Program-made: the position numbers and the translations under genes
NCBI GenBank assembly: GCA_964036195.1
Contig: OZ038452.1
Coordinates: 9,604,704 to 9,668,703, forward strand
Source: Sphaerolaimus hirsutus
Lineage: Eukaryota; Nematoda; Chromadorea; Monhysterida; Sphaerolaimidae
Length of the DNA: 64,000 nucleotides
Direction of reading: 5' to 3'
The notes under the pieces: model-generated
The model's input: the letters and a program-made list of their open reading frames with translations, nothing else
Database searches by the model: none
Told to the model about the DNA's origin: nothing
Shown here: one piece after another, positions 36,754 through 61,569 of the stretch
How the letters are laid out: every line of letters begins with the position of its first letter
Numbering within the stretch: position 1 is the first letter of the stretch

Positions 36754-36761
36754 TTTCCTAA

Positions 36762-39700: not shown

Positions 39701-42700
39701 CGTTAATAAATTAATCCCTGTGATGCAAGGCCTGGAATTAGAGGATGAGGAACCTGACGAACTGGTCCCAGAGTCACCCGAAGAGCAGCAGCGCACTACT
39801 GGAATGCATGTGCTCGCGCAGGAGCGGGAATTCTGGATCAAACCATGGGCATACATGCGAACTGAAAAAGGTTACCTGTTTCGAACTACCTGGCTGGCCT
39901 TTCTACGCAGGATTGGAATGCATGATTTGAGAGAAACGGACTGTACGTTGTGGCCTAATTGCCCTGCAGACGACCACTCGGACACGCTGACTGAGGTGCC
40001 CTTGGATGTGCTCATGAACATCAGCCTGGACCCGTTTTTGTACGCCACGCCGGCCGCCCTGCCGCCACGTACTGGCTCCAGCAACCAGGTCGACAGGTAT
40101 ATGGGTTTTCTGTCTACTGAGGAAGGGGTGCGCCCCGCGCCGCGCGCATATTCAGAACCCCCCTACATGCCTCAGGTCGCACAGTCGCTGTTTTTCGTAT
40201 TGGCAGTTGGGTTAATTATAATGGGATTAGCCTTTTTGCCGGGCGCGGGCGCGACTACCATGCCCTCGTTTCCACTGCTCTGCAGCGACTTGACAGATCA
40301 CTACGATTTATACACGTACCCCCCTCTACCCAATTGCACGGCTATTGTTGACACTACGGCGTCATTAGAACGGCCACGAAAATTGACACTGACAATCTAC
40401 AAGCGAAATATGGTAGAATATCGTGCGGCAGCGCACAGGTGTGTGGCCTCTACCCGAACGGCAAAGACGTATCAGAACTTCTGGGGCGACGTCACGCTGG
40501 AAAAGTTTGATTCTAACCCCCGATCTGTGGGCGCCGCCGAGTGCGAAGGCATGATTAAATATCACAAGTGCAACAATGGGCCCATGACCCCTGTGAGTGA
40601 TTTGGACAACGCATGGGACACCCAGTACCCCACCAATGTTAGCTACTCAGGACATGGATTATACTGTTGCAAATGGGTGAGTGAAACGACGCCACACTGT
40701 GGGCTGTTTCGAGGGGAAGTACGAATGAGATATGGAGCCAACACCATGCAAAGCACGCTGGGTGAGGTTAGCAAGTGCAATTATGAAATGGGTGCATGCA
40801 CGCTAGAAGACGGCAGCCAATTAACATGGAAACCGAACCCGAAGGCGGAATGCCCTTATGAAAAATGGCGTGAAATGCATGGACGCATTAGACAGGACAT
40901 CTGGCTAGCTGATGATCATACACTATCACTGTCCTTCAGAGCACATGAAGAGGTTGAATCATGCGGCATTAAATTATGGAAATCGGACCAGGATATTGTA
41001 GTGGCGCCATTTGAGAAGGCAGTGATTCGAAGCGTCAGACAAAAACGAGCGCAAGGTCGACCCACGCTGGGAATAGTGAGCGCAGGCCAATTAGCAGCCA
41101 GCATGCAGGCGGTATACGAAACAGCAGAACAAACCATGCGCGCGCAGGCCGTAGCCACCTGCAAGAATGTGCAACACTTCCAAGAATTTGTGCGCCTGGC
41201 TATGAGCGAACACGCAACTACGACAGCCCGATGGTACATGAATGATAACGAAATAATTGCCAAACCCGCGCCGGACGGATTTCTGGTTCACAAATGTTTT
41301 GCGGTAAAAACATACGAGATCATGAAAGAGAAGAAGTCTCCAGAATGCTACGAAACAGTACCTGTGCAAGTTAGCGTACACGGGCAGAATGTGACGTTGC
41401 ACATGAATAGGTTGACAAACATTTTGCATTTTCAAGCGATCCCGGGCTCATGCACCAATGCGCACAATCGTGTGGTAATGTTAAATGGACAATGGTACAA
41501 ATATCTACCGGAAGTCGGCGGCCTGGAACATTTGCCTATGTATAACACCCACAGTTTTCCGCAGAAATGGCAGCAGGAAAAAGTCAGGGATGTGCATCAT
41601 CAGATTTTTGCCGCCACGACTATGTACAACTTGTCAGAATTATTGCCGACGACCACCCTGAATGACGTATGGCATGCATATTCAATCGTGCGGCAAATTA
41701 CGCAGGGGGCGGAGCCGAGAGTGGAATCACACATGCAAAGACATCGAACCTTGGCAAAATCGGTATTAGCGCTGGGATGGTGGGATTTTGACACCTGGCG
41801 CACCTGGCTACAAGTATGGATCTATCTGATATGTGCACTGGTCACCATGCAGTATTTACTAGCCGCGCTCATGGCTGCAGCGCCGGAAATGGCCGTGACT
41901 TTGGTGAACAGGGCAAAGGAAAAAATCAAAAGGCGACCAAAGACAGAAGAAAAGTCCAATATCATTGTCGAATTGGCTGAGGACCGCCCTAGCGAACAGG
42001 TAAAGGTAAGAATGGTAATTAACCCGTGCGTGGGAATGCCAAGTGGCATGCCCGCACTCACGGGCGCGCGTCGTTTTCCCGCTATACAATACAGTATCAA
42101 CAGAAAATGCGATCTGGAAGAAGAATCGGTGTGCATGATCACTTTCTCGACGGAAGAAAGAGACAACATCCATCAAGTAGCCAATCAACGTGAAGAGATT
42201 GTGCATGTGTACTACAGCCCATCCATTACCATAACCATTGATGGGAGAGAATATCGAAGATGTCTACTGGACACAGGCGCCATGCGTTCATTATGCAACA
42301 GAGACGTGCTGATGCGACACAAGGAAAAGGCTACTAAGCATGATGAAGTTTCACCTATTGGAGCCCTTAGGTGTGCAGCAGACTCGAAACTTTTGGTATT
42401 GGGACAAATGGAAGTACCGGTAACCATGGGAAACCACACCTTCGGGATTGTGTTTCAGGCAGTGAACGGATTAGCTGGTGAAATTCTAATTGGTGCAGAT
42501 GTCTTACGGCACATGGTAGTGGACCTACCTGCAAGGGAATTACGAATCCCTACGGCTAATGCGATCATTCCCTTTGATAACCCAGACCCGGAAGTGCAGC
42601 AGCGCAGAATTTACGCTATTGTGAATGAAAAAATAGAAATTCTGGCTAGACATGAAGCGCTAGTGACCGCAAAATTATCTGCCCCCATGGATGAAAGGTT

Positions 42701-43448
42701 ATTTACGGTCATGGGATTGGATACGGTAGGTGAACGCTGTGGCGTTATGGCTGCTTCAGCGGCCTATGAAACTAGTGCCCCTGTGTTTCAGGTGAGATGT
42801 GCAAATGTACGAAACCAGCCCGTAGTGCTACAGGTAGGACAGCGCATTGCAGTGGTCGAACCAGTGGACTGCGTGCTGAAGGTGAAACCTGGAGACCCTC
42901 CCGCTGAATGGGTGAAGCAGTGCTATGACAGAGATGTGTGTCGACAGGTTCAAGCGACTGAACCTCCCCCCAAAGTAGCCGAAGACAAATTAGGACCTCC
43001 ACTGCAAGTTGCATGTCCAGATGGACACGTGATGGAATTTACCGTGCCAGAAACATTGACGGACGAACGCAGAGAGGAACTGAAAAAGGTGATTTTGCAG
43101 TACAAAGAAGCTTTTGCCCGACACAAGTATGACATCGGCTACAGCGAATTAGTGGACTACCGGTTGCAATTGGTGGACAAAAAGCCAATTGCTTGCAGAA
43201 TGTACCGGTTGAGTCTGGATGATCAGCAATACTTAGAAAATCATTTGAGATGCCTCATCGAGCACGACATCGTGGAACCCAGTACGAGCCCGTATTGTGC
43301 CCCCACGCTGGTGGTATCCAAACCGGATGGATCAAAGCGGATGGTAATTGATTACAGACGCCTGAACGCTGTTTTGCACGCTCCCCAATTCCCATTACCC
43401 CGCTTAGATGAAACAGTCGAATCTTTATGTAGCTGCAAGTATTTTTAG
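36762..43448 (+). CDS. gag-pol: Gag / envelope-like / protease / RT (N-terminal) polyprotein
   Basis: One frame is open from 36762 to the stop at 43446-43448. No in-frame ATG occurs before 37725, so the first 320 or so codons need a non-AUG start, a spliced leader exon, or are not translated. Residues below count from 36849. About 510-665: retrotransposon Gag capsid-like domain. C790, C793, H798 and C803: CX2CX4HX4C zinc knuckle, followed by an RGG-rich stretch and a Gln/Met/Pro-rich stretch. About 1113-1677: envelope-like glycoprotein, listed separately. D1808 in LLDTGA: aspartic protease active site, with ILIGADVL as the usual later motif. From about 2055: RT start, including the SPYCAPTLVVSKPDGSKRMV region. 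The frame breaks at a T run (43442-43446), and RT continues one frame over. Confidence 0.9.
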   Translation, partial: ASHKVFCLGRLINASTKNGFTDNESPQRELRSRGPASLQGDTIEQVWHAALEKQKQARRRARQQKAGQEVDAQLAAAESQAGDSESNDSVNPETEAPEALEESESQRWSGQTAEDTPVIRLSTVEGAGPAPDSFSQWKTPAVPAAARQLTSSAEAEEAPGTSRQAAGKEAGKTGKWSKLRRTLGWSAGSSSISPGVRSGSEVGSDRYVGDSEPLGQPSIQRDYPVIAAELGATADQFPVIENTVAELLETATQSGDTSPALQLSPPKSTSTPRDVSGNSSRNLSSDQSRSQSATAKARRQLIKTENSNNPPVIVISSPASRMTNNGANQTAAPALEDRYAKVTNADLIYQATIMDLDPVQTTPTCAQWTPKKACAAAKKWANMMSQARPVGAFSQNGGEPGDLRMVTLIKIAMNLWGSDPAAEVPRVEHFLQEFEAHHSVHRDDIVDLTTAYQQHNQAVQNQNATLGGNSPASGQQPIVLTNGQAAPLQSSTAPVAPPSAAGTNQVRTVTQRRARSHSPASSRSSSATSEVARPTDPGQNWQLEQSNAAVITALAQQCGYFRGKPNEGFRDWRRSWDTVCDALRIKLQERKPLVKLFLKGSARAIFNTRYRELRDLNYKDMMQALEKFYENPNDKHHAQREIFETRQGADESVLEWAVRLEKLIKRAYPGMGHEKRGDTCMIKFHGGLRNEIRRNVPVTASITWKEMVDNARAQESFLEAEQSQNKGEKSKQDVVASATDKVMDRLMALNMPAMAGLPSQADKTLETMEQKMTESVAKFDSVHQEIAKKLAQLGALEGKLLGLNRDPPKLPPRKFDKGCWECGSEEHIRYECPKLTPEQREQYFKRSRGGGASRGNGRGRGGGQRGGYQGNNQAQAMQPGMVPMQYAYPQWQPAQPMPVQPAQTVQRAGDMNMQPQMMAYQTPPANWMAMGPDGRMQQYNMQPVQVSNPHVESLNPTRVSSTTGMTMHVREDDRCMMIRPVNKLIPVMQGLELEDEEPDELVPESPEEQQRTTGMHVLAQEREFWIKPWAYMRTEKGYLFRTTWLAFLRRIGMHDLRETDCTLWPNCPADDHSDTLTEVPLDVLMNISLDPFLYATPAALPPRTGSSNQVDRYMGFLSTEEGVRPAPRAYSEPPYMPQVAQSLFFVLAVGLIIMGLAFLPGAGATTMPSFPLLCSDLTDHYDLYTYPPLPNCTAIVDTTASLERPRKLTLTIYKRNMVEYRAAAHRCVASTRTAKTYQNFWGDVTLEKFDSNPRSVGAAECEGMIKYHKCNNGPMTPVSDLDNAWDTQYPTNVSYSGHGLYCCKWVSETTPHCGLFRGEVRMRYGANTMQSTLGEVSKCNYEMGACTLEDGSQLTWKPNPKAECPYEKWREMHGRIRQDIWLADDHTLSLSFRAHEEVESCGIKLWKSDQDIVVAPFEKAVIRSVRQKRAQGRPTLGIVSAGQLAASMQAVYETAEQTMRAQAVATCKNVQHFQEFVRLAMSEHATTTARWYMNDNEIIAKPAPDGFLVHKCFAVKTYEIMKEKKSPECYETVPVQVSVHGQNVTLHMNRLTNILHFQAIPGSCTNAHNRVVMLNGQWYKYLPEVGGLEHLPMYNTHSFPQKWQQEKVRDVHHQIFAATTMYNLSELLPTTTLNDVWHAYSIVRQITQGAEPRVESHMQRHRTLAKSVLALGWWDFDTWRTWLQVWIYLICALVTMQYLLAALMAAAPEMAVTLVNRAKEKIKRRPKTEEKSNIIVELAEDRPSEQVKVRMVINPCVGMPSGMPALTGARRFPAIQYSINRKCDLEEESVCMITFSTEERDNIHQVANQREEIVHVYYSPSITITIDGREYRRCLLDTGAMRSLCNRDVLMRHKEKATKHDEVSPIGALRCAADSKLLVLGQMEVPVTMGNHTFGIVFQAVNGLAGEILIGADVLRHMVVDLPARELRIPTANAIIPFDNPDPEVQQRRIYAIVNEKIEILARHEALVTAKLSAPMDERLFTVMGLDTVGERCGVMAASAAYETSAPVFQVRCANVRNQPVVLQVGQRIAVVEPVDCVLKVKPGDPPAEWVKQCYDRDVCRQVQATEPPPKVAEDKLGPPLQVACPDGHVMEFTVPETLTDERREELKKVILQYKEAFARHKYDIGYSELVDYRLQLVDKKPIACRMYRLSLDDQQYLENHLRCLIEHDIVEPSTSPYCAPTLVVSKPDGSKRMVIDYRRLNAVLHAPQFPLPRLDETVESLCSCKYF
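39594..39602 (+). promoter_or_regulatory. Perfect internal splice donor CAG|GTAAGT
   Basis: CAGGTAAGT lies between codons at the end of the Gag Gln-rich tail, just before the linker to the envelope-like region. It is a full match to the U1 consensus. It might truncate Gag or produce spliced messages. No experimental support. Confidence 0.35.
40185..41880 (+). other. Envelope-like glycoprotein region between Gag and protease
   Basis: In the same frame as Gag. A 22-residue hydrophobic segment (about residues 1113-1134, SLFFVLAVGLIIMG) is followed by an ectodomain of about 520 residues with 16 cysteines and at least four N-glycosylation sequons (NCT, NVS, NVT, NLS). A basic RQKR near residue 1397 could be a furin-type cleavage site. 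A second hydrophobic stretch (about 1653-1677, WIYLICALVTMQYLLAAL) precedes a basic Lys/Arg-rich tail. This is the layout of a class I or III viral fusion glycoprotein. The late ectodomain, with a Cys-Tyr...Val-Pro-Val start and a Trp-Tyr before a Pro, reminds me of glycoproteins of negative-strand-virus type, but that is only an impression. The strict membrane layout is seen; the fusion role is inferred. Confidence 0.7.
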
Positions 43449-45981
43449 CAGTGCCGACATAAACCAAGCTTTCTATAACATTGCTTTGCATCCAGATGAT
43501 CGACACATCACGTCATTCAGAAATGTTTTTGGACAATTTCAACTGAAACGTTTACCCATGGGATTAAAATGCTCACCTAGTTTAGCGCAGCGCTGTTTTG
43601 AACTAGCTATGGCCGGTTTAATACATCGAAATGTATTATTATACATCGATGATTTACTGATTTATAGTGCAACCTGGGAAACACATTTATATGACATAGG
43701 ACAGGTGTTAGAAAGACTAATTAGGAATAATTTCAAAATTAGTCCAAAAAAGTGTTTTTTCGCACGCGTCACAGCTGTACGCTTTCTAGGATTTATGATT
43801 GGCCGTGACGGCGTGTGCGTACCAGATGATAAACGGCACATAATTCAGGACTGGCCAGTACCCACTACCGTAAAAGAGGTAAAAGGATTCCTGGGAGCTA
43901 TCGGGTTTTTCAGACGCATGATTCACAGATGCGCAGAGCTAGCAGTACCCTTGTCAAATCTCACGCGTACGGGACCAAGAGAGAATTACAATAGCGACAC
44001 CCCGGTGGATTTGACATCGAAACCCAAGGCACTGGAAGCTTTCCATAAGCTCAAGGAAGCATTGTTAGGAAGCCCATGTCTGCAATTTCCCGATCCTAAA
44101 CGTATGTTTATAATTATCACGGACGCCTCTAAAATTGCTGTTGCAGGCGTGCTAGCACAACGAGCAGAGGACGAGAAAATACTACATGCATGTGCCTTTT
44201 ACAGCCGGAAGTTAGGTGCAACCCAAAGCAAATGGCCAGCGATTTCCCTGGAAGCGTGTGCAATCTACGAAAGCATACGTAACTGGCATTGTTATCTGGC
44301 GGGACGGCCCTTTGAAGTCTGGACTGACGCCAAGAGTATTTCGTGGGTAAAGAATCCTAATTTAGAGACTACCCCGCACGCCATGCTGCACAAGTTCGCT
44401 TTAGCAATTACGCCGTACCAAATCACGTTCAAGCATTTGCGGGGAAAAAGCAACGAATTAGCAGATGCATTATCCAGAAGACAAGACGCACCAGTGGTAT
44501 TCGACGAGAAAAAGGACCTGGATGAGGCCTTTGAGCAGTTCGCACAAGTTACGTGCCGTGAAACCGCTATCCCGCACGATAGGCAGGTTACGGTAGCTGC
44601 GGCAAGCAGGACAGCGTACCAGCCAATCAGCGTAAACGAGGAGGCGGAGTTACTGCGACCAATCAGCGACCGGACGCGCGGGCGAAAAGAGGCGGAGTCA
44701 CCCGGGCTGCGAGAGCGGCAGCGGAATGCGGAAGCGCCTGGAACCGGAACAATGGCTGGTGGTTCAGGAGCCGGAAATGAAGTTGTTCCGGGTTTGACGA
44801 GTGCAACTAAGCGCAGTACAATCATGGCACTACCTCCAATGACTTCGGTTGACAAATTGAAGCGACTACAAGCAGAAGAACCATACATAGCCACAACTAT
44901 AGAAGTGTGTCGCGCAGATAATTTTTACAGCGCCGCGCCGTATTTTATTGACCAATACGGTTTGCTACGTCGCCAGGCGGGAACGTCCCAAATACCAGGT
45001 ATACAATTATACGACCCCGTATGTATTCCGTCGGAATTAGTTCCATTCGTGTTAGAATTAGCTCACAATCACCCTACGGCGGGCCATTTAGGAATAATAA
45101 AAACATTTGAAAGATTACAGGAATTCGCGTGGTTTCCAGGAATGCGGCCAGAAAGTGCGCGCTGGGTTGCCACCTGCCCTTCGTGCAACGCCAAGAAAGG
45201 TCTCAGAGCGGCAATGCGAACTCAAATGGTGTGCCGCCAGGTAGCCAAAAGGCCAGGTGATGTGATAGCGGTAGACGCAATAGGACCTTTACTAACCACG
45301 AAACGCAGAAACCGACATGTGTTAGTATTTGTTGATCAGTGCACACGTTTTGGAATTGCTGTGCCCGTTCCCGACATAAAACAAGACACAGTATCATTTG
45401 CATTTCTGTTGCACATTTTGCCTATATTTAGTGTGCCGGCCATTATACTCAGTGATAACGCCCCTAGCTTTACCGAGGGCACTTTTGCCAAGCTTCTACA
45501 ATATTTGAACGCGACCCAACATACATCATTTGCGTACACCCCCAAGAGCAACGGAATGGTGGAACGTAGGAATGGTGTTCTGATGGAAATAGTATCACAC
45601 TACGTAAATCGTACCCATGACGATTGGGACATACATTTAGGCGCCGCTGTACACGCGTACAATACATCGAAACACCCTTCCTTGCAAACCACCCCCTATG
45701 CGTTGCTATTTGGCAAGCCTGCTGCGTCCATGTGGGAGCGAATGATCGAGCCTCCCCCTGACAACGAGGCATTGCCCTCATTGCCGCATAAGCGCGCTCT
45801 TATAAATGAATTAGGCGCGCGTCTGACCACAGCACGCGAAGCAGCGCATACCGCTTTAGCAAAGGCGCAGCAAAAAAGAGCAATTTTACGCCAATCGCCG
45901 TGCGCGCCGATTGAATGTGCAACGCGGGCAAGCGGTACGCGTATACACGCCGCGTATTACTCAGTTGACGGGCCCCAGTAA
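43408..45981 (+). CDS. pol: RT (C-terminal) / RNase H / integrase, frame 2
   Basis: Continues the RT in another frame after a one-base offset around 43442-43446. Residue numbers count from 43408. YIDD at 79-82 is the RT catalytic box. RNase H follows, with DASKIAVAGVLAQ, an EACAIYESIRNW segment and TDAKS as acidic positions. A linker of about 120 residues precedes an integrase zinc domain with HX...H and CPSC. The integrase catalytic triad is D623, D683 and E719, with 35 residues between the last two, the D,D35E pattern. The frame ends at 45981 because of another one-base offset near an A run (45872-45877); the integrase end lies in a third ORF. As read here, the polyprotein is broken in two places. 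Confidence 0.9.
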   Translation: MKQSNLYVAASIFSSADINQAFYNIALHPDDRHITSFRNVFGQFQLKRLPMGLKCSPSLAQRCFELAMAGLIHRNVLLYIDDLLIYSATWETHLYDIGQVLERLIRNNFKISPKKCFFARVTAVRFLGFMIGRDGVCVPDDKRHIIQDWPVPTTVKEVKGFLGAIGFFRRMIHRCAELAVPLSNLTRTGPRENYNSDTPVDLTSKPKALEAFHKLKEALLGSPCLQFPDPKRMFIIITDASKIAVAGVLAQRAEDEKILHACAFYSRKLGATQSKWPAISLEACAIYESIRNWHCYLAGRPFEVWTDAKSISWVKNPNLETTPHAMLHKFALAITPYQITFKHLRGKSNELADALSRRQDAPVVFDEKKDLDEAFEQFAQVTCRETAIPHDRQVTVAAASRTAYQPISVNEEAELLRPISDRTRGRKEAESPGLRERQRNAEAPGTGTMAGGSGAGNEVVPGLTSATKRSTIMALPPMTSVDKLKRLQAEEPYIATTIEVCRADNFYSAAPYFIDQYGLLRRQAGTSQIPGIQLYDPVCIPSELVPFVLELAHNHPTAGHLGIIKTFERLQEFAWFPGMRPESARWVATCPSCNAKKGLRAAMRTQMVCRQVAKRPGDVIAVDAIGPLLTTKRRNRHVLVFVDQCTRFGIAVPVPDIKQDTVSFAFLLHILPIFSVPAIILSDNAPSFTEGTFAKLLQYLNATQHTSFAYTPKSNGMVERRNGVLMEIVSHYVNRTHDDWDIHLGAAVHAYNTSKHPSLQTTPYALLFGKPAASMWERMIEPPPDNEALPSLPHKRALINELGARLTTAREAAHTALAKAQQKRAILRQSPCAPIECATRASGTRIHAAYYSVDGPQ

Positions 45982-46156
45982 GAAATTCGCGCCTCGCTTT
46001 ATCGGCCCGTATGAGTGCATTGATTATGCCCACCCATTAGTGACTTTATTCAACAATATTAATAAGAAAATTTATGTAGTTCATGCGGATCGTTGCAAGG
46101 CAACCAGTGAATATTTAATTCCCCCTTCTTACAGTGAATTATACGGCGACGACTAA
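45890..46156 (+). CDS. Integrase C-terminal domain, displaced frame
   Basis: Encodes the SH3-like end of integrase: a basic stretch, RGQAVRVYTP, then FIGPYECIDYAHP, the GPY-type motif common in Ty3/gypsy integrases. It ends at TAA 46154-46156. It overlaps the end of the previous ORF in another frame. Confidence 0.8.
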   Translation, partial: ANRRARRLNVQRGQAVRVYTPRITQLTGPSKKFAPRFIGPYECIDYAHPLVTLFNNINKKIYVVHADRCKATSEYLIPPSYSELYGDD

Positions 46157-46384
46157 AAAATTGATTAATTAGCTGATTAATTAGCCGTTACGATCATCGC
46201 CGTCGCGTCAAACAACACGAAACCAGGTACAACAGGTATGAAGTGTGTGTGAAAGTGTGTGTGTTTTTTTAGGAAGCTCGTGCACCCCTTTTGCCCACGG
46301 GCAACTGGACCGCACGAGTTCTTGTTACTTTCCCCGTTCATAAAACTTCGCAATTAATTATTTTATCACATTATTATAATTATA
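46157..46384 (+). promoter_or_regulatory. Leader of the helicase ORF with candidate splice acceptor
   Basis: The 228 bp contain TTAATTAGC repeats, a donor-like CAG|GTATGA near 46234, then TGTGTGTGTTTTTTTAG ending at 46272, a good pyrimidine-rich 3' splice site about 110 bp before the ATG. It fits translation of the helicase from a spliced subgenomic RNA. Confidence 0.4.
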
Positions 46385-49300
46385 ATGGCTTCGGCCTCTC
46401 GCAAACGCCCATTTGAAGGTGCAGACGCCCCGCCCATTAAATCCAAGGAGACAAATACACATGGTGCCTGCGGCGGCGGAACCATTCCCCCGCGACAACT
46501 TTACCGCGCGCAGCAGATGCAAAATGGACCGGAAATCTACCCCAGCAGAGGGAAATTCGAAGGTTGGGTAGATAGGGTGTATATTGACTCGGGCGCCGAC
46601 GGGCATGTTGAGTATCAGTGCCATGTGAGAATTTCTGAGCAGACGATGGCGATACTCAGCGAAAACGAGCAGTGGGTGAATGCGGATGAAGCTTATCCGT
46701 ATTTTTATTATTCGAATAAGCGGGCCAAGGCGGCTAGGGACAAACGGACCACCCAGCTGGTGGATTTGTGCGCGAGAATTCAGAAACAACACCCCTCGAT
46801 GTTCCTGCCCCTAGTGCGCCACGGGATGCGTTTCTCGGCGACCGCAATCGCACAAAAAATAGAAAATCCCCGGTACTGGGAGTTTACCGGTGTCGCGATA
46901 TGGGGTAATCAGACAAAGTGCCCCTTAAACGTTGCCGCCCCCGTGGTCGTGAGTACGCAGGGCACGCGGCGCGTCACTCAAGCGGCACGTACATTGACGC
47001 GCGGCGACACTTCCGGCTACCAGCCCTACACGAGCGACTGGAAAACAGCGCGGCTGCGAGCGGCCTTCACGCTGTCGAATTACAAAAATCTGGAACCGCT
47101 GGGCGCGGCGGAGCGAGGTGATGCCGGGCCGGAAAAGCTTGTCATTTTGCACAGAGAATATGTGAGTGACAGCAGAGTGGAAAATTTGAGTGCGGGACAG
47201 TTGGGGCTGGCCCACGTCGAGTATCACGACTTGAATGATCTGGACGTGTTTGGCGACGAATTCTACGGCCATGCGTACGGGCTGCAGGTCGCCACGGCCG
47301 AGGATATCAGCACATCGGGCATCCAGCCAGACACAGAGAACCGAGACAACATGGACTCGTTTCTCAGGTATAAATTGGGCATTTTAGCAGCGGCTCACTG
47401 CTATAACGAGTCATTTTTGCGATTTCGGGCGAAACGCGCAACGGATGTGTGCGCACATGTGTCCTGGGAGCACACGCCGCAGGGCACTGCATGCGATATT
47501 ATGGTGCGCCGCCCGGACCCAGAAGAGTTGCAAGCTGACACTTTCGAAGGACCAGAAGAGCAGCGCGTGCGTTTGCTGGAGCAGGTGAACACGCAGACAC
47601 AGCTGTTGAACCAGGCGACGCCCATGTCGGTGTTGAGCTTGGTGCTGGCCAGACCGGACGAAGACAAACCAGCGGCGGGCAGCCCCAATCTATCAGTTAG
47701 AATTACCAGCGTGGAATCAGGGCCAACCACTACAATGCTGCGTGCGAAGTTGGACATGGCGGCGTCGCAATCAGCACTGCCCCGAACCCTGGAGAGTGGA
47801 AGATACATGGTGCGCGGCTCGAACGACTCGCCCAATTACGACCGAACCATGCGATCACTGCAAGCCGCCCTGAACAAAGCGCCGGTCGGCTGGGTGCCAA
47901 AAGTGGTCCAGGGGTCAAAAGTACTCACCCTGGAGGCGCAAATCCAATTAGCTGTGATATTGAATTTGCGTCTGCTGGATGACGAAACTGACTGGGCGCT
48001 CATTAGCCGCGAGGCTAATGAGTTGTACGAATCATTGTTCAGAGGAAAAAACGAACAAATGATTCAGGCCAAATTAGGTGAGTTTTTGCCGCAGCAGGGG
48101 CAGGTAGAAGTTTTAGGAGCTGTGATCACAGCCGTGCGAATGCGCAAACCCCTTTTGATTATGTGTGACTCGCCTTTCGGGTCCGGGAAGACGACCACAC
48201 AAAATCAACTGGCGTATGTGTGTTCACGCGGCTATAATTATTATAACTCGAGACCCAGGGTGCGCGCGGGCTCCGACTTGCCATCGGACAAGCAGCCGAA
48301 CGCCAAATACCATTCGACGCTCATCACGTGCACGGTCAACTCGGCGGCCGACGAAGGCGCGCGCAGGGCCCTGACCAACCTGAATAAATTAGGGCAGCGG
48401 GATATTTTTGGGGCTTTAGAAGTCTTATTGCGGGAGCGCGCGAAATGGACCGCCATGGCTGATACGCCATTTTCTGAAATGCAAAAAATGGAGGGTTTTG
48501 AAGAATTTTTGAAATTAAGAGCGGCATTTCCGGTGCGCGTTTTGAGTCCCATGTGGGAAACTGACCCCACTTATAACACCACCCCCGCGACCCAATTGCC
48601 AACCCTGCACACCCTAGCACAGCGAACCGGCCACAACATCGTCCGCCTCAGCCCCGAATGGACGGCAGCGCTGGAAAAGTACGACGGCGCCAAGAAGGAC
48701 TACGAACTGGTGGACGAAATCATCAACAACTGCACGGACGACGCCGTCATACGCGCGCAGCTGACCGAACAGGTGCCCTTTCTCACCGCCGACGATGGAG
48801 ACGAGCAGCCATTCGATGACTTCGAGGCAGGCGTGGCGGGCGCCCGGGCTGGTGAGGCTAGTTTAGCTGATCAGGGATTTTGGGGTAAGGTGCTGCGTAG
48901 GGCGCTGTCTAAATATGTCAGGGCTACGGTCAGGCTGCACCGGGTGTTCTTGGAGGTGGTGCAGCCCGGTCAAATCCATGTCACTTTAGACTCCGCCCAC
49001 GACGCCCGTATAAAAAGTGTGACTGCGTGTGCGGTAATTATTGACGAAGCGTCTTTGGCGTCTGACGCTGCAGTAATTAGCGTGGCTCAGGCGGCTCAGC
49101 TCCCAGTGAACGGCATGCTACTTCTATTTGGAGACAGTAAACAATTGACGCGTATGATTCGCGTGCAAGACTGGGTGGAGCCTGTCCTGAAACCCGACCC
49201 CACCCTCATTGATAGGCTCACACAATACCAACTATGTCCCGTGGTTCACTTGGAAACAGTGTTCCGCGGGCATCGCCAGCTCATTCAGGCCAACTCTGTG

Positions 49301-50347
49301 GCGGCGTACAATGGACTGCTACGCGCCTACAACGACACTGCAGCGCACGGCGCCACCATGTTGCCCGCGCCTGGCGACTTCGAGGATGGCGTCATGCTGT
49401 CATCGACGCTGGTGCACCAGGGCTGCGAATCGAAAGAAGGCATGTCCATTATCAACAAAAAGGAGCTGCGCATCATCCTGCACCTGTACGACTACCTCGT
49501 GGCCACAGTGAAAGAAGATCCCACCCTGCCCTGGGCAGATCTTACCGATCCCGCTAGTTTGCTAATTGTCTGTTTTTATGCGGCGCAGGCGCGCGCCCTA
49601 ATCAGTCGACTAGTAGCCCATACAGAACACGACGCGGCTTACTGGGCCACCCGCGTGATCACTGCCGACAAGGCACAGGCCCGTGAAGCGGAAGTGGTCA
49701 TCGTTTCCTGCGTGCGCGGCAGCCCGCCTACCGACTCCGCCCAGCTGGATGCCGATCCCAAGAAGGCGTACGGTAGAGTTGGATTTGTAGCGGAGTTGCC
49801 CCGGGGAAACGTAGCCACCTCCCGCGCCAAATGTGTGCGCATCGTGGTGGCCAACGCCGAGACCATGTTGTGGTCAACCTTTTTCCACCGGTTTCTGACG
49901 GTCGAGCACAAAGCCGACCGGATTTACTCTTACGAGTCAGGCCAAATTTGGGGAAACGTGTTGGGATTTTGGCCTCCGGAATGGCGCCCGCGGGCCGACT
50001 TGAAAGAACTAGTCGGACCGGACAGATACCCGGCCCTCGAAGAAGAACTGCAGGCGGAATGTTTGTCTGACATTGAAACCGCCACCGCGGGCTCTGACTC
50101 CTCCGCAGACGCGCGGGAGGAGGGTGTGCCGGTGTTGGAGGAAGTGGTGCCCGTTGTCGAACCAGTTTACCAACCTAATGAAGAATATTCCCCCATTAGC
50201 AACGACATGGCGGCCATGGCATTGCAGAACGTAGCCGAGCCCCCCTCGCCGCCGCCCGAGCACCACGACGCGGTCGAGGCCATCCCACTGCCACCAGAGG
50301 AAGCTCCAGCGCAACAGGTAGAACACCACATGGAAAATGGTAATTGA
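46385..50347 (+). CDS. Superfamily 1 helicase, 1320 aa, carried by the LTR element
   Basis: An uninterrupted ORF from ATG 46385 to TGA 50347. The C-terminal half shows SF1 motifs in order. Walker A is CDSPFGSGKTT (K602). Motif II is VIIDEAS (D887, E888), with LLLFGDSKQLTR (from about 913) as motif III. ETVFRGH is near 957. ITADKAQAREAEVVIVS is near 1092. VATSRAK is near 1142, with the arginine finger of motif VI. This is the UPF1/DNA2-like or viral SF1 group, which acts on RNA or DNA 5'-3'. The spacing between motifs I and II is long (about 285 residues), implying an insertion. The first 580 residues match nothing I know. The last 120 are Glu/Pro-rich and probably disordered. The strand is the same as pol, with AT-poor codon use and no frame breaks, unlike pol. 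Role in the element is unknown: replication, RNA protection or defence evasion are all guesses. Confidence 0.88.
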   Translation: MASASRKRPFEGADAPPIKSKETNTHGACGGGTIPPRQLYRAQQMQNGPEIYPSRGKFEGWVDRVYIDSGADGHVEYQCHVRISEQTMAILSENEQWVNADEAYPYFYYSNKRAKAARDKRTTQLVDLCARIQKQHPSMFLPLVRHGMRFSATAIAQKIENPRYWEFTGVAIWGNQTKCPLNVAAPVVVSTQGTRRVTQAARTLTRGDTSGYQPYTSDWKTARLRAAFTLSNYKNLEPLGAAERGDAGPEKLVILHREYVSDSRVENLSAGQLGLAHVEYHDLNDLDVFGDEFYGHAYGLQVATAEDISTSGIQPDTENRDNMDSFLRYKLGILAAAHCYNESFLRFRAKRATDVCAHVSWEHTPQGTACDIMVRRPDPEELQADTFEGPEEQRVRLLEQVNTQTQLLNQATPMSVLSLVLARPDEDKPAAGSPNLSVRITSVESGPTTTMLRAKLDMAASQSALPRTLESGRYMVRGSNDSPNYDRTMRSLQAALNKAPVGWVPKVVQGSKVLTLEAQIQLAVILNLRLLDDETDWALISREANELYESLFRGKNEQMIQAKLGEFLPQQGQVEVLGAVITAVRMRKPLLIMCDSPFGSGKTTTQNQLAYVCSRGYNYYNSRPRVRAGSDLPSDKQPNAKYHSTLITCTVNSAADEGARRALTNLNKLGQRDIFGALEVLLRERAKWTAMADTPFSEMQKMEGFEEFLKLRAAFPVRVLSPMWETDPTYNTTPATQLPTLHTLAQRTGHNIVRLSPEWTAALEKYDGAKKDYELVDEIINNCTDDAVIRAQLTEQVPFLTADDGDEQPFDDFEAGVAGARAGEASLADQGFWGKVLRRALSKYVRATVRLHRVFLEVVQPGQIHVTLDSAHDARIKSVTACAVIIDEASLASDAAVISVAQAAQLPVNGMLLLFGDSKQLTRMIRVQDWVEPVLKPDPTLIDRLTQYQLCPVVHLETVFRGHRQLIQANSVAAYNGLLRAYNDTAAHGATMLPAPGDFEDGVMLSSTLVHQGCESKEGMSIINKKELRIILHLYDYLVATVKEDPTLPWADLTDPASLLIVCFYAAQARALISRLVAHTEHDAAYWATRVITADKAQAREAEVVIVSCVRGSPPTDSAQLDADPKKAYGRVGFVAELPRGNVATSRAKCVRIVVANAETMLWSTFFHRFLTVEHKADRIYSYESGQIWGNVLGFWPPEWRPRADLKELVGPDRYPALEEELQAECLSDIETATAGSDSSADAREEGVPVLEEVVPVVEPVYQPNEEYSPISNDMAAMALQNVAEPPSPPPEHHDAVEAIPLPPEEAPAQQVEHHMENGN

Positions 50348-50936
50348 GAAAATTGATACGAAACAACTTTTGCCTAAGTCAATTATAAAAATTTTTAAGA
50401 TGTAATAATTTATGCACAACTTTTGTCACCAGGAGAAACAGACAACTCTGTAACAAAAAATAATCAGCAAACAAAAAACATACTTGTTAATATTCCATGA
50501 AAACAATTAGAAAATCTTGTCGACGATCAATTTTCACACGCACGGACTGCGACATGTCGGTCGAGCAGGTAACTTGAATGTTGATTCCAAACTGCCCATC
50601 CAACAGTGGCACGATGCTGTGAAATAATACAGATTAGTAGTCTGATTAATTAGTTTCCAAAATCAAAAAAGAAAAAACTTTTTCTCACATCGAGCCCTGA
50701 GCGGGAACCAAAATTTCGAAGTTTCGAGCACAAAAAGCCGGCACGGCAGAAAGCTGATGCCATAATTCAAATGAAGACGAGCCATATTTGCACCCCCAGG
50801 GCATGTGACTGCCACAGCCGTCCACCGAAAAATGCAGAGAAGGCATGATTTTTGAATAATCAAAAAACGGCGCAAAACACTTTTTCTGAACATGTCGTTT
50901 TTAGCCCGGAGGTAAAAAATTAATGGCTGGTGGGAT
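50348..50936 (+). other. 3' untranslated part of the LTR element
   Basis: 589 bp without a convincing ORF. No clear polypurine tract is present immediately before the LTR. The nearest purine-rich run is GGAGGTAAAAAA at about 50909-50920, 17 bp away. Confidence 0.6.
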
Positions 50937-52612
50937 TGTAGGTAGAAATATGGCTAACTAATCATGCGTAAAAACGTAACGACAATTTTGCGCAGACACT
51001 CCGACGACTCGAGAACGACCATGTGCGACCGAATGACGACCCGCGGTGCACAGGGAAGTCACAGTGAACGTGCGGTTCGCTGTGCACTGCAAATCCGCCA
51101 ACAAAGCCGCAGCCCCAGGACGGTACGCCCGAATGGACACTGCTGCGGCCATGAATTTATTAATTAATTTCTTTTCCGTTAATTACGTAATTAATTCCCG
51201 TGTGATGATAATTTTTCATTTCATGTTTCGTTAATTAAGCTAATTAGGATACCCACACTGTTAGTTAATTAAGTGACTACTTCCGTTTTTCTTTTTAAAT
51301 GCATTTCCCAACATGTACTTTCGAATGTTATAATTTTTAGGTTTTGTCAAGTTTACATTTTTGGTCAAAAGGGTGCAGTGTCTGGGAATGGGTTAGAAAG
51401 ACTTTAATGTTTCTAGTTAAGCTAACAGGTGTTGACTCTGTTAAATGCTTAGACGCCCCGATAGATAACATTCAGAAAATTCCCCGACCAAGTGCTTTTT
51501 ACTTAGGACTAGGTAATGGGTGGAAAAGTGGCAAACGGCAATTATTGTCGGCATGCGACTGCAAGACACATGCAGAGCACAGTTTATAGTGAAGAGCACA
51601 GTAGTGCCAATTAATTATTCCCATCACCCAGGGTGATTGGTGAACTCACAAGTGCTAGTGTTTTGTGGCGTGTGTTTAGTCCCAAAGTTCCAACCCTTAC
51701 CCGGCAATGCAGTAACCTTGAACAAACCCCGCAAATGAGCGTTTCTTTCTGTGGCCTTGGTCGGGCGCGCTATAAAAATATTTTTCACCTAAAGGGGCGC
51801 AGGTTGATAACACGTGTCACACCACCTGCTCTAATTTGTACCGTAACCTCTGAATAGAACCCAGTTTATGACACTCACCTTTGAGATGAATTGCAGTTTA
51901 ATTACGTCAGTGATAACCACAGTTACTTTACGCTTGATTTAAATTACGTTTGCAACCGTTCGTTTAATTAGTTATTTTTCCCGCATTGAATTAATTTACT
52001 TGTGCCTCGTACGCTATGTTTACGGTTTTCCAGTGATCATTGAATTTGCCTTATTAATTCGCTTATTACGGTTAATTGTTGTGTCTCTGATTTAGTATTC
52101 ATTTCGCTTATGGTAGGTTTTTGGTGATTATAAAACGCGCTGATTTTACATTTTTTCACCCACTAGAGGCTATACGACTCACTTGAGCTATTGTGAAATT
52201 GACTCTGACTATATCGCTAAATAAAGTTCCCGTGAACCCAACTTGGTCCCCCTGAAGCATACTAACTGCTTGAATTTTAATTTGGATTTTATTAATTTCG
52301 GCTTTTCATTAATTACGGCTTTTAACAATTAATCGAAGTAAACCGCCGGCAGCAGCTAAGAAAGAGATTGGTAAGTTGCCGTGTCCGTCCTCAGGAACTG
52401 TCAGGACCCCAAGGGGTACTGGCGCCGTTCCTGATTTGCGTGTAAACATCCCCGTACCATAAAACCAATTATTTATTTAATTAAGCACGCAAGTGGAAGC
52501 GCAAAGGGACCGGAATTTGCAATTCTCTGCCGCGGCAAAATTCGACGAGTGGCGTATTTATGTGGTAAAAACGGAAAATAGTAAAATAGATAAAAACGTA
52601 AAATATCTGACA
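50937..52612 (+). repeat. 3' LTR (1676 bp)
   Basis: Aligns base for base with 35058-36733 at a constant offset of 15879. It is followed at once by the TCTA target duplication. Confidence 0.95.
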
Positions 52613-52616
52613 TCTA
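52613..52616. repeat. Target-site duplication TCTA (right)
   Basis: Repeats 35054-35057. Coding of the interrupted gene resumes directly after it. Confidence 0.9.
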
Positions 52617-54731: not shown

Positions 54732-55127
54732 CTAGCAGGATTCTCTCCGACCTTCGGTCGGGTTTTGTGGTTCTCTACAATTAATACCATTGGAGGAAAT
54801 ATGATAGTTTAGTTAAGTTTGCCCACATGCTAGGCATGTGTTTTGAAATGCGGTATGTAATGTACCAACAATAACAAGACCAATACCAAAGATGCAATGT
54901 TTTGGAATGGATTTTTTGTAAACTTCTGTAAAATGGTTGGGCAGTGTGCATTTTGTGTGGTATAGGTTTTGTGATATGATAGTGTGGTTTTTGCAAGGTG
55001 TCAAAATTTGTTGTTATCTTAAATTTGTTACATTTGTGCTTTGCTGTTCTTTTTGTGTTTGTAAATCCTTGTGGTATAAATTGTAGAGAACCACAAAACC
55101 CAACTGAAGGTTGGAGAGAATCCTGCT
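54732..55127. repeat. 395-bp unit with 45-bp inverted ends
   Basis: GCAGGATTCTCTCCGACCTT and GGTTTTGTGGTTCTCTACAA at the left are inverted at TTGTAGAGAACCACAAAACC and GTTGGAGAGAATCCTGC on the right. It forms the left end of the insertion and may be its original mobile core. Confidence 0.8.
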
Positions 55128-55149
55128 ATAGGTACCCACTACTCAGAGG

Positions 55150-55690
55150 CTTGCCAAAACTGACACCCCAGTGGGGACCCCCCTCCAAATGGCATCACCC
55201 AGGGAACCCCCCAAAAGTGGCACCCCCTGGGAACCGCCCAAAAATGGGACCCCCTAGGGCCCCACAAATATGGCACCCCCTGAGGACCACCAAAAAATGG
55301 CACCCCTTAGGGACCCCCCAAAAATAGCACCCCCTAGGGACCCCCCAAAAATGGCACCCCCTGGGGACCCCCCAAACATGGCACCCCCTAGGAACCGCCA
55401 CAAAAATGGCACCCCCTGGGGACCCACCCAAAGTTGGCTCCCCCTGGGGACTCTTCAAAAATGGCACCCCCTGGGGACCCCCCCCCCCAAAATGGCACCC
55501 CCTATGGACCCCCCCCCCCACAAAAAAATATAGCACCCCCCTAAGGACCAACAAAAAACGGCACCACTGGGGACCACCCAAAAAATGGCATCCCATTGGG
55601 ACCCCCTTGAAATGGCACCCCCATATATGCCTCCAAAAAATGGCACCCCCTGGAGACCCCCCAAAAATGGCACCCCATGGGGACCCCCTC
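55150..55690. repeat. Tandem array of 27-bp TGGCACCCCCTGGGGACCCC units
   Basis: About 19 copies of TGGCACCCCCTGGGGACCCC followed by CCAAAAA, with small variations. The ORFs on both strands (Pro- or Gly-rich) are simple translations of the repeat. Confidence 0.9.
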
Positions 55691-57900
55691 TAAATCCTGT
55701 AAACACAGCCCCTAGTTTGGAAACTCCTGTAAACTCAGCCCCTAATTTATAAACTCCTATAAACTCAGTCCCTAATTTGGAAACTCCTGTAAACTCATTT
55801 TCAGGTTTATGGTAATGTAGTGTCAAAATAGAATGAATATTTGAAATAATCTCTAGCATCAATCCACAAATGCATCAATTCACAATCTTCAATTTTTTAG
55901 CCCCTGGGGTTAGACTTAAAGGTTATGGTTATGTAGAGTAGAAATGGAGTGCACATCTCAAATCACTGCAATAAAAACCCACAAATGCATCATTTCACAA
56001 ATTGAAAGTTTTTGGGCCCAGGGGTTCATTATCAGGGTTTTAGTAATGTGGTGTAAAAATTGAGTGTATATTTGAAATTGCTACAATCAGAAACCCACAA
56101 ACACATCATTTTATGATTTGAAATTTTTTAGCCCTGGGGGTTCATTTTCAGGGTTATGGCAATGTAGTGTCAAAATGAAGTGCATATTTCAAATCAAGGC
56201 AATCAAAAAGCCAGAAATGCATCATTTCACAATTTCTAATTTATTTTCAATTTTCAATTTAAGGCTTACAGTAATGTAGAGTTGAAATTGAGTCATTTCG
56301 AATCAGTGCAATTAGAAACCTGCAAAATGCATCATTTCACAATTTGAAATTTTTTGGTCTAGGGGTTCAATTTCAGGGTTTTAGTAATTTAGTGTCAAAA
56401 TGGAGTGCATATATGAAATTGCTACAATCAGAAACCCACAAATGCATCATTTTATGTTTGAAAGTTTTCAGCCCAGGGGGTTCATTTTCAGGGTTATGGT
56501 AATGTAGTGTCAAAATGAAATGCATATTTCAAATGAGTGCAATCAGAAACCCAAAAATGAATGATTTCACAAATTGAAAGTTTTTGGCTCCAGAGGTTCA
56601 TTTTCAGGGTTATGGTTATGTAGTTTTCAGGGTTATGTAGTGTCAAAATGGAGTGCATAGTTCAAATCAGTGTAATCAGAAACCCACATTGAATCATTTC
56701 ACAATTTCTAATTTTTGAAGCCCTGGGCATATTTGAAATCGTTACACTCAGAAACCCACAAATCCATAATTGTGATTTGATGATCATCCATGATTTGAAA
56801 GTTTTTGGCCCAGGGGGTTCATTTTTAGGGTTATGATAATGTAGTGTCAAAATGAAGTGCATATTTTAAATTAGTGCTATCAGAAACCCGAAAATGCATT
56901 ATTTCTCAAATTGAAAGTATTTGGCCCCATGGGTTCATTTTTAGGGTTATGGTAATGTAGTGTCAAAATGGAGTGCATATATCAAATCAGTGCAATCAGA
57001 AACCCAAGAATGAATGATTTCACAAATTGAAAGTTTTTGGTTCCAGAGGTTCATTTTCAGGGTTATGGTCATGTAGTTTTCAGGGTTATGTAGTGTCAAA
57101 ATGGAGTGCATTATATATCAAATCAGTGCAATTAGAAACCCACAATGCATCATTTCACAATTTGAAAGTTGGCCCCAGGGATTCAATTTCAGGGTTATGG
57201 TCATGTACTGTCAGAATGGAGTGCATATTTCAAATCATTGTAATCAGTAACCCACAAATGCATCATATCACAATTTATATTTTTTAGCCCCGGGGGCCTC
57301 ACTGAAGGATTATGGTAATGTTATTGTTAACTCCCATAAACTCAGCCACTAATTTGGCAAACACCCATCAACTCATCAGTGCAATCAGAAACCCAAGAAT
57401 GAATGATTTCACAAATTGAAAGTTTTTGGTTCCAGAGGTTCATTTTCAGGGTTATGGTTATGTAGTTTTCAGGGTTATGTAGTGTCAAAATGGAGTGCAT
57501 TATATATCAAATCAGTGCAATTAGAAACCCACAATGCATCATTTCACAATTTGAAAGTTTTGGCCCCAGGGATTCAATTTCAGGGTTATGGTAATGTACT
57601 GTCAGAATGGAGTGCATATTTCAAATCATTGTAATCAGTAACCCACAAATGCATCATATCACAATTTATATTTTTTAGCCCCGGGGGCCTCACTGAAGGA
57701 TTATGGTAATGTTATTGTTAACTCCCATAAACTCAGCCCCAAATTTGGCAAACACCCATCAACACAACTCCCATAAACTCAGCCTCTAATTTGTAAACTT
57801 GTGTCAACAGCCCCTTATTTTTAAACTTCTGTCAACTCAACCCTAATTTATAAACACCCATCAACTCAACCCTGAATTGAAAACTCAGCCCCTAAAAACT
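55691..57900. repeat. Degenerate minisatellite array (GGGTTATGGTAATGTAGTGTC)
   Basis: Repeats with the core TTCATTTTCAGGGTTATGGT, GTAGTGTCAAAATGGAGTGC, CAATCAGAAACCCACAAATG and CATCATTTCACAA, spaced about 110-130 bp or multiples. A higher-order copy of about 388 bp is nearly identical between 56988-57375 and 57376-57763. The edges contain AAACTCAGCCCCTAATTT units. Confidence 0.85.
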
Positions 57901-58138
57901 CAAGTTCACCCCCTATACATGTGCAATTGCATTCTTGGGAAGCAACTTTGCCATCTACTAACCCTGTTTGTCAAGATTGTAACGTGTTTGTAAAGGGCAT
58001 TTTGTACTAATAAATAGTGACTGCATTGTGTGCAAAAACACACACAAATCGGGCAAAAAATGAGGCTGTGATTGTGCCCCTATCTTTTGCATTAGGCATC
58101 CTTTGCACGCAGTTTTCTCAAAATTGTATAGGTTGTAA

Positions 58139-58630
58139 TAATTTATGTTTCATATTAACCATGTACGCATAGTTGTCATTGATGTCCAGTAAGAGGGCGT
58201 CTTTACTAAACAGCTTCACTGTGCGCCAGCACGTAGAGCCAAATCTGGGTATCAAAGCTACCATGTTAGAAACATTAGTTGGTGGTGTTGGTGGGTTGGT
58301 AACTGGTCCGATTTCCAATCTAGTTGCTATATCCGTTCCATCGGGTTTCACAACCTTGTATTTCATGCGGACAAAAATGTTTGATAGATCGATGTAATAT
58401 TGCGATGTGTCTATTGTCCACGTCCATGATGTATTGTAGTCAGCGTGTTGTACTGTTAAGGGTACCTCAAACAGTTGAGATTGGACAAAAGTAGTATCAA
58501 CTACGGGGGCTGTCCAATACTCCACTTCATCGGATGTTACAAACGATGAAGATGGGTTGGGTTTCTGCTTCAAGATTGTTTCGGGTTGGGCGAAGGTAGA
58601 TCCTTCTATATTTGCTGTTGATGCGGCCAT
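58139..58630 (-). pseudogene. Major capsid protein (double jelly-roll), N-terminal part
   Basis: ATG at 58630. The first 35 residues are Ser/Thr/Pro-rich. A conserved EYWTAPVVDTTFVQSQ segment follows, then DTSQYYIDLSNIFVRMKYKV, the strand-rich start typical of the Polinton capsid family, and RFGSTCWRTVKLFSKD. The frame leaves the gene at 58138, where the TTGTAA duplication starts. No other break was noticed in this part. Confidence 0.8.
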
Positions 58631-58700
58631 TTTGTACAAAATCTTTTAAATGATAAATTTTTTCATTGTCCATCATCTTATATAGGAATTTGGGTTCAAG

Positions 58701-58802
58701 TTAACGTGGAAATACAGGAATCGATACCGGAAACTTTTTTTTAGATCTCCTTTTACGACGACCTTTACCCGTTTTCCTTTTTCCTTTACCTGCCTTTTTC
58801 AT
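58701..58802 (-). CDS. 33-aa very basic protein (adenovirus mu/pX-like)
   Basis: A small ORF with ATG 58802, of which about 18 of the first 23 residues are Lys, Arg or Gly (KGKRKTGKGRRKRRSKKK), ending FPVSIPVFPR. It lies just upstream of the capsid gene on the same strand. Basic core peptides of this sort condense DNA in adeno-like viruses; here the role is inferred from composition and position. Confidence 0.5.
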   Translation of the reverse strand: MKKAGKGKRKTGKGRRKRRSKKKFPVSIPVFPR

Positions 58803-58880
58803 CCACGGTGGTAAAAACTTTTATCCACGCCTCTTCCTTCTCCGTCCTCTGCCCTTGCCAGTTGCACCTCGCCGCTTACC

Positions 58881-59156
58881 TTAACCAATCTTTTTTTTAA
58901 CATACTTTCTTCTTTTCTTCCGTTTCTCTGATGGGTCCTCTGTCGACTTTACAGCCTGCTGACTCTCGCTGGCAACTATGGGTTCAGCCAATAATCTAGT
59001 ACTAACGATACCTGGAGAACCTAATCCCACTAGACCAGTAAAATTAGCTTTATTCATTATCTGCTTTTCATAAAATGATGCATCGGGTGTCTTATATACT
59101 CCATAATTATACTTGTGAATTTTTGCGCAGTCTTTTTCGGATTCTGGGTGATCCAT
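58881..59156 (-). CDS. Small protein with a basic tail
   Basis: 91 residues from ATG 59156. The middle is hydrophobic and Gly-rich (TGLVGLGSPGIVSTRLLAEP), and the end is KRKKRRKYVKKK. A second basic stretch continues out of frame after the stop (58880-58820, RGATGKGRGRRRKRRG), so the C-terminus may be truncated. It may be a core or minor capsid component; unproven. Confidence 0.5.
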   Translation of the reverse strand: MDHPESEKDCAKIHKYNYGVYKTPDASFYEKQIMNKANFTGLVGLGSPGIVSTRLLAEPIVASESQQAVKSTEDPSEKRKKRRKYVKKKIG

Positions 59157-59265
59157 TTTATTACTGCAATATAGGGCGCTTTCTCAATGACAAAGATAAA
59201 AAAATTCTCACATCAGGTCCTAATTTCACGTAGGTACCATTCTCAAAGAAAAATGAAAATTGTAG

Positions 59266-59958: not shown

Positions 59959-60203
59959 TTTTCAATAATGAAATTTATTGTTGAAATCATATACCATGTA
60001 ATATTTATCATGATTGTGTTCTAGAACATTTTCCGTTCTGTCTAAATGTGAAAATGACAGTGACGTTATTCACATTTCCCAACTTTGAGACAAATTGAAT
60101 TGTATATTACTGGGAAATTCATAAACCATATTGGATGCCATACATTCCTCATTGTTGGGTTCTAAAATTATATCAATATGGTATTCATTCGACTTTGGCT
60201 CCA

Positions 60204-61562: not shown

Positions 61563-61569
61563 ATCGAGT

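Follow-up and report, generated by a model that had tools for sequence, protein, structure and literature searches.

We analysed a 64,000-nucleotide stretch of the genome of the nematode Sphaerolaimus hirsutus (contig OZ038452.1, positions 9,604,704–9,668,703; hereafter the window), which contains a long terminal repeat (LTR) retroelement of 17,555 bp at window positions 35058–52612 on the plus strand. The third gene of this element, open reading frame 3 (ORF3; 46385–50347, plus strand), lies between integrase and the 3′ LTR and is predicted to encode a UPF1-like superfamily 1 (SF1) helicase of 1320 amino acids. Comparison of copies across the host genome shows that the helicase moves together with the element and has an open frame in many copies, and that strong purifying selection maintains it alongside the envelope (env) and pol genes. 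We propose that this UPF1-like helicase is very probably active and serves the handling of genomic RNA or cDNA in reverse transcription, a reading to which we assign a probability of roughly 55%.

ORF3 is predicted to encode a UPF1-like helicase

ORF3 consists of an N-terminal region (residues 1–560), a helicase core (about residues 561–1190) and a C-terminal tail (residues 1191–1320). The Pfam family AAA_12, which represents the second RecA-like domain of UPF1-type helicases, matched residues 940–1158 (49202–49858, plus strand) with an E value of 8.1e-25 and a score of 88 bits against a curated cut-off of 27. The Walker A, DEAx, GDxxQ and arginine-finger motifs are all present in order, as GSGKT at residue 599, DEAS at 887, GDSKQ at 916 and TSRAK at 1145; the first three lie in the contexts SPFGSGKTT (596), IIDEASL (885) and LLFGDSKQL (913), and TADKAQ is found at 1093. 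The intact 1320-codon SF1 reading frame described in a first-pass annotation of this DNA is therefore present, and the profile searches proposed there placed AAA_12 above its cut-off and Viral_helicase1 below its cut-off of 21 (E 0.057, 13.7 bits; 15.6 bits with the core alone). The NCBIfam model of the IGHMBP2 family (TIGR00376) matched with an E value of 1.7e-13 and 49.9 bits, far under its membership cut-off of 348.9, and the PLuB helicase-like model of the same collection matched with an E value of 1.2e-4. One PHROGs family with no assigned function also matched within the helicase core (E 4.4e-5). The best chains in the PDB were 8ftm, 8fth and 8ftk, named '5'-3' RNA helicase-like protein' and which we take to be fungal Sen1 (E 6e-6 to 3e-5), followed by UPF1 (E 0.07–0.27); with the core alone as query, UPF1 was matched at E 0.011 and NAM7 and SMUBP-2 at E 0.06–0.2. 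The motifs and profile matches support the assignment of ORF3 as an SF1 helicase of the UPF1/Sen1/IGHMBP2 kind.

The N-terminal region yielded no Pfam match at E ≤ 10, no match at E ≤ 10 among 7,990 scored candidates of the protein collection, and only sub-significant matches in the PDB (best E 0.4), in keeping with the earlier remark that the first 580 residues resemble nothing recognisable. The Cys/His-rich zinc domain found at the N-terminus of UPF1 likewise had no Pfam match in residues 1–560 at E ≤ 10, and this region contains 7 Cys in 560 residues. Residues 550–1200 matched no protein at E ≤ 1e-3 among 7,996 scored candidates; these searches of the protein collection score only the candidates with the most words in common with the query. 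A search of viral contigs for the helicase gave six stretches that fit a pattern, none of which was confirmed. The C-terminal 130 residues form an acidic and proline-rich tail with 28 acidic residues and 19 prolines.

The helicase is a gene of the element

Further copies were sought in the host genome, which comprises 348 Mb in 762 contigs; the DNA and protein results given here are the best-scoring candidates only. All 37 listed DNA matches to the helicase are full length with 99–100% identity, and 34 of the 35 listed full-length protein matches have no stop; the union of the two sets, which counts the window copy, gives at least 46 full-length helicase places. With the AAA_12 profile as the query, 150 places were scored, of which 148 show the pattern of the element (profile positions 4 or 5 to 194); the frame is 1300 aa or longer in 99 of these and shorter in 49. 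The remaining two are pieces of host UPF1-like genes.

The position of the helicase within the element is constant. It lies downstream of pol at a fixed distance in 51 of 53 matches to ORF2, the pol frame described below (offset −66 to +9 bp), and the other two have no helicase at that distance among the 148 listed places. The 3′ LTR was found behind the helicase in 19 of the 20 other copies read, the twentieth (L010) having 200 N, and the sequences past the 3′ LTR differ between copies, apart from two that are similar; L017 and L023 have similar flanks despite 51 base differences between their helicases. A target-site duplication (TSD) of at least 4 bp flanks 15 of the 17 other copies with both ends read, 13 identified by script and 2 by eye (L012 and L019, in which the script missed the right end because the LTR end word recurred by chance); L015 and L028 have none, and L011 and L018, which bring the copies tried to 19, yielded no 5′ end. 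Only short, imperfect repeats surround the helicase ORF itself, and no terminal repeats of its own were found. Because the helicase has a fixed place after pol, a 3′ LTR behind it and TSDs at the ends of the element, it moves within one unit. The first-pass annotation had named copies that lack the ORF, or insertion boundaries around the helicase, as observations that would speak against an element gene; what was found is a helicase at full length in every listed DNA match, common to independent LTR-bearing copies and with no insertion boundary seen around it.

Two helicase copies at C6:7577975 and C6:7593852 lie 15,877 bp apart on one strand, which is about the LTR-to-LTR spacing, and the pair resembles a tandem element with a shared LTR. 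Recent activity is suggested by the large number of intact, nearly identical copies, which opens expression to a direct search.

The helicase is under purifying selection

The ratio of nonsynonymous to synonymous differences per site (pN/pS) of the helicase averaged 0.101 over 21 copies (the window copy and 20 others), with values of 0.111 for residues 1–560, 0.071 for the core and 0.163 for the tail. Amino-acid sites thus change ten times slower than silent sites. Among the variable codons, 141 are silent and 50 carry an amino-acid difference, among them a stop in L016; this copy was aligned past its single stop as X, and the pN/pS calculation ignored stop codons. The pS of the helicase (0.030) is close to that of the 3′ untranslated region (UTR; 0.028) and of the 3′ LTR (0.025), so the silent sites look neutral. 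Four more diverged copies with 94.6–97.7% DNA identity were also fetched, three of which, compared together with the window copy, gave a helicase pN/pS of 0.092 at a pS of 0.13; here the core (0.083) and the N-terminus (0.082) are about equally constrained. One stop in L030 was skipped, L031, which has small gaps at its start, was left out of pN/pS, and a 6-bp insertion in L021 led to its exclusion from one eight-sequence comparison. In all three of the more diverged copies the four SF1 motifs tested are intact, so catalysis seems to matter.

Values for the rest of the element, from 9 copies, were 0.041 for ORF2, 0.093 for a piece of env and 0.138 for the first 292 codons of ORF1. The constraint on the helicase is about equal to that on env. 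The many open copies, the fixed position and the pN/pS of 0.10 and 0.09 at two depths of divergence identify the helicase as a maintained gene of the element rather than a passenger.

Predicted domains indicate a large, enveloped-virus-like element of the Ty3 type

The two LTRs (35058–36733 and 50937–52612, plus strand) are 1676 bp long, begin with TG and end with CA, differ at 3 of 1676 bases and are flanked by the 4-bp TSD TCTA (35054–35057 and 52613–52616), which agrees with the cleanly bounded element reported previously; an initial repeat scan had returned just a 300-bp portion of these LTRs. A putative primer-binding site, which starts with TGG, lies 2 nt past the 5′ LTR (36736–36753, plus strand), and the LTR-to-LTR spacing corresponds to a genomic RNA of ~15.9 kb. 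The TG...CA ends with a TSD of 4–6 bp and the pol order of protease (PR), reverse transcriptase (RT), RNase H (RH) and integrase (IN) are those of Ty3-type elements (Metaviridae), with a protease match that is weak (E 0.069, below cut-off) and at the expected place. For RT, a similarity search of the protein collection gave 20 proteins at E ≤ 1e-3 among 7,997 scored candidates, the best with an E value of 1.2e-66 and 34% identity over 41% of the query. A Helitron was also considered and rejected, since the Pfam scan of the element ORFs gave no Rep or Pif1 match.

ORF1 (36849–43448, plus strand; 2199 codons from a TTG, 2228 stop to stop) encodes gag, env, protease and the start of RT in one frame. 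The Gag domain (38541–38780, plus strand) was matched by Retrotrans_gag with an E value of 1.3e-5 and is followed by a CCHC knuckle (about 39213–39263, plus strand; E 0.02, below cut-off). The envelope glycoprotein region (40188–41882, plus strand) consists of a fusion-glycoprotein match between two hydrophobic segments (ORF1 residues 1114–1132 and 1660–1678), which fit the signal and membrane anchor expected of a glycoprotein. The match is to PF24664 (Monjiviricetes_fusion) at ORF1 residues 1298–1556, with an E value of 9.4e-7 and 27.6 bits against a cut-off of 27, and rose to 30.4 bits (E 1.3e-7) with a smaller piece of ORF1 as the query. The aspartic protease region (42228–42500, plus strand) is the site of the sub-threshold Asp_protease_2 match and has a DTGA motif in its translation. 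The frame is 2216–2229 aa long in 59 of the 86 env matches in the host genome and shorter in the remaining 27; frame lengths were read through internal stops, which occur in 3 of the 86 env matches and in 2 of the 53 ORF2 matches. The env piece for which pN/pS was calculated (40680–42170) has no stop in the 9 copies. A predicted chuvirus/mononegavirus-like glycoprotein thus sits in frame between gag and protease and is under purifying selection.

The first 292 codons of ORF1 (36849–37725) contain no in-frame ATG and are nevertheless open in 9 of 9 copies, and the only ATGs between 36281 and 37730 are at 36681 and 37725. Non-AUG initiation and an unseen exon are candidate explanations for the start of ORF1.

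ORF2 (43408–45981, plus strand) encodes the remaining RT, RNase H and integrase, as identified with Pfam. The ORF1 stop (43446–43448, plus strand) falls within RT, and reading resumes in the +1 frame, with an RT protein reading that is continuous across the junction and has no gap; an intron at this point was rejected on account of that continuity. The 25-base stretch at the junction is identical in 18 of the 20 other copies and has one mismatch in the other 2, and the RT part after the junction has a pN/pS of 0.008, the lowest among the parts tested (9 copies), which indicates that it is in use. The ORF1 stop is therefore a candidate site of a probably programmed +1 frameshift, at an unusual location within the RT domain. 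The earlier description of pol as broken holds for the window copy in so far as its ORF2 ends early (857 aa), a feature unique to it among the 53 matches, but not for the RT frame change, which is shared by the copies checked; the other ORF2 matches end at query residue 826–827 and then run on to 914–919 aa, the length of the ORF2 frame in 52 of the 53. The gene order of the element is gag-env-PR-RT-RH-IN, with env in frame, followed by the helicase as the third gene, and the predicted domains indicate a large enveloped-virus-like Ty3-type retroelement in which Gag-Env-PR-RT are fused and RT-RH-IN follow after the frame change.

Proposed role of the helicase

The LTR contains a TATA-like box at 36250 and, farther downstream, a putative splice donor, GGTAAGT (36491–36497, plus strand); a putative splice acceptor, a T-run with AG (46264–46272, plus strand), lies ahead of the helicase with no ATG before the helicase start. 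The donor-like site is kept in all 19 of the 3′ LTRs that could be read (12 found as the exact string; L022–L028 as read), and the acceptor AG in each of 20 copies (13 found as the exact string; L022–L028 with one G in the T-run). With a conserved donor in the LTR and an acceptor ahead of the helicase, ORF3 is probably expressed from spliced RNA, in which the LTR donor would be joined to the acceptor 112 nt before the ORF3 ATG, a parallel to the expression of retroviral env. The helicase would then act on the element's own RNA or cDNA, moving 5′ to 3′ along the genomic RNA or cDNA of ~15.9 kb to clear structure and bound proteins, and could aid strand displacement over the 1.7-kb LTRs in reverse transcription. 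An RNA genome of ~16 kb is well above the usual retroviral size. The wider proposition, that an enveloped reverse-transcribing lineage acquired its own replicative helicase to copy such a genome, as large plus-strand RNA viruses do, and is the first element of this sort known, with a programmed frameshift inside RT as well, is put forward tentatively, at somewhat less than even odds. HIV-1, which encodes no helicase, uses those of its host, and two of these are incorporated into particles and have an effect on reverse transcription; for HIV-1, host UPF1, MOV10 and RHA are described as acting on steps such as RNA decay and export (PMC3484045).

Several observations weigh against a helicase that serves reverse transcription. 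AAA_11, which represents the first RecA domain, stayed below its curated cut-off of 27 (19.1 bits; 21.9 with the core alone) and aligned only in its C-terminal part, which we read as divergence together with a large insert between motifs I and II, spaced by about 290 residues in ORF3. In motif V, the Gly of UPF1 is replaced by Ala (QARE versus QGRE), and AlphaFold single-sequence models of residues 561–1190 and 1–612 reached a predicted local distance difference test score (pLDDT) of only 33.5 and 31.5. The pN/pS values are averages over related, non-independent pairs and carry no P value. The splice-like sites are conserved over closely related copies only, and such conservation is weak evidence because the copies are too alike; a separate ORF, moreover, does not guarantee that the ORF3 protein enters the particle. 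The activity, polarity and substrate of ORF3 are inferred, as are its splicing and packaging.

Protection from decay and RNA export are serious rivals to a role in reverse transcription. In the first, which we regard as unlikely while ranking it ahead of the other alternatives, the helicase would counter host RNA surveillance by coating or clearing the genomic RNA and shielding it from nonsense-mediated decay. Such decay would be invited by the ORF1 stop, behind which the RNA runs on for nearly 9 kb, and the frame change is found in the copies examined; UPF1 is among the closest relatives of ORF3, and it is described as loading on the long HIV-1 3′ UTR, while an element of Rous sarcoma virus blocks Upf1-dependent degradation (PMC3484045). 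A mere decoy, however, would need no intact ATPase, yet the tested motifs are kept in all three diverged copies. The core is also the most constrained region among the 21 close copies, a difference that disappears in the diverged set, and residues 1–560 have no match to the zinc domain of UPF1.

The second rival, by analogy with host UPF1 on HIV-1 RNA, would have the helicase assist the export, translation or packaging of unspliced RNA. It seems that the element requires unspliced RNA as well as spliced RNA, and UPF1 is reported to promote export of HIV-1 genomic RNA (PMC4693258); the present observations do not separate this proposal from a role in reverse transcription, and we hold it to be improbable, behind protection from decay. 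Far less plausible is a functionless passenger ORF captured by a founder copy and then amplified. LTR elements are known to capture extra ORFs (PMC6431247), and many copies do decay, given the frames under 1300 aa at 49 of 148 AAA_12-type places, but the low pN/pS at both divergence depths and the 34 of 35 listed protein matches without a stop contradict it. That a separate element or host helicase gene lies fortuitously inside the LTR element of the window is scarcely credible, the one point in its favour being that the helicase stretch has the highest G+C of the element (0.56 at 48001–50000), against the same place after pol in 51 of 53 matches, the 3′ LTR that follows it in 19 of the 20 copies read and the lack of terminal repeats of its own.

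The first-pass annotation had further suggested an origin from a host UPF1-like gene or an RNA virus. The UPF1-like assignment stands, whereas recent capture of the UPF1 of this host was rejected at 26–28% identity over about 100 residues, and a source in an RNA virus or another virus may also apply, with a sub-threshold Viral_helicase1 match (E 0.057); the origin of the helicase, like its biochemical role, is inferred. The pieces of host UPF1-like genes, at C65:86011 and C14:4125120, are near-identical to each other.

Other features of the window and host genome

An ORF cluster on the minus strand (58118–63639) includes sub-threshold matches to an integrase core (rve, E 5.4e-6) and, in a P-loop protein, to AAA_11 (E 0.003), besides ORFs with no Pfam match, and may be a Polinton/Maverick-type or other DNA-virus-like remnant. 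A tandem duplication with a spacing of 6,170 bp occupies about 20193–30918, is 97–100% identical in the reported parts and has duplicated ORFs. Short degenerate repeats at 54998–55862 give rise to proline/glycine-rich ORFs on both strands. The host genome contains 17,164 overlapping exact matches to five TTAGGC repeats (11,832 + 5,332) and none to the reversed control; TTAGGC is the nematode telomere type. The canonical nematode SL1 leader had no exact match in the host genome, which, as a guess, may point to an early-branching nematode lineage.

Comparison with known systems

To our knowledge, the general view is that retroviruses and LTR elements have no helicase, and the top-ranked matches in the open-access full-text literature included no LTR retroelement or retrovirus with a helicase of its own, a weak negative result. 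It is already known that LTR elements can carry other enzymes as extra ORFs (PMC5408684) and an in-frame env (PMC6431247). The giant Ty3-type Burro elements of planarians share with the present element a mononegavirus-type env in frame between gag and pol, one huge ORF and great length; they were proposed to be integrated proviruses, and their in-frame gag-env-pol was described as the first case (PMC6431247). Burro differs in its domains of apoptosis/ubiquitin type and in the midasin-like AAA region that it has in Dugesia, and the account of its domains mentions no SF1 helicase (PMC6431247). MATH, BIR, BCL2 and ankyrin domains were absent from ORF1, ORF2 and ORF3 at Pfam E ≤ 1.

A mosquito retroelement with a chuvirus/Jingchuvirales glycoprotein and the element Anakin are presumably the same element. 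The env was captured from the same virus group as here both in the mosquito element (PMC7642597, PMC10084718) and in Anakin (PMC12440569), and the descriptions given in these sources mention no helicase. The LTR elements of bdelloid rotifers, like the present one, carry an enzyme as an extra ORF3, but their enzymes are a DEDDy exonuclease and a GDSL esterase, with no significant departure from neutrality reported within genomes (PMC5408684).

Among cellular proteins, UPF1, Sen1 and IGHMBP2 (SF1B) have an AAA_12 domain and the SF1 motifs in common with ORF3, whereas ORF3 has no zinc-domain match, possesses a 560-residue N-terminus without relatives and is borne by a retroelement. Alphavirus-like viruses and nidoviruses combine a large RNA genome with their own SF1 helicase, as is the case here; in contrast to such viruses, the present element replicates via reverse transcription, and its match to Viral_helicase1 is below the cut-off. 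With one lineage carrying a helicase under selection, it becomes possible to test whether the supply of helicase sets a limit on reverse transcription and on genome length, and an element-borne helicase provides a natural counterpart to the effects of host UPF1, MOV10 and RHA on retroelements.

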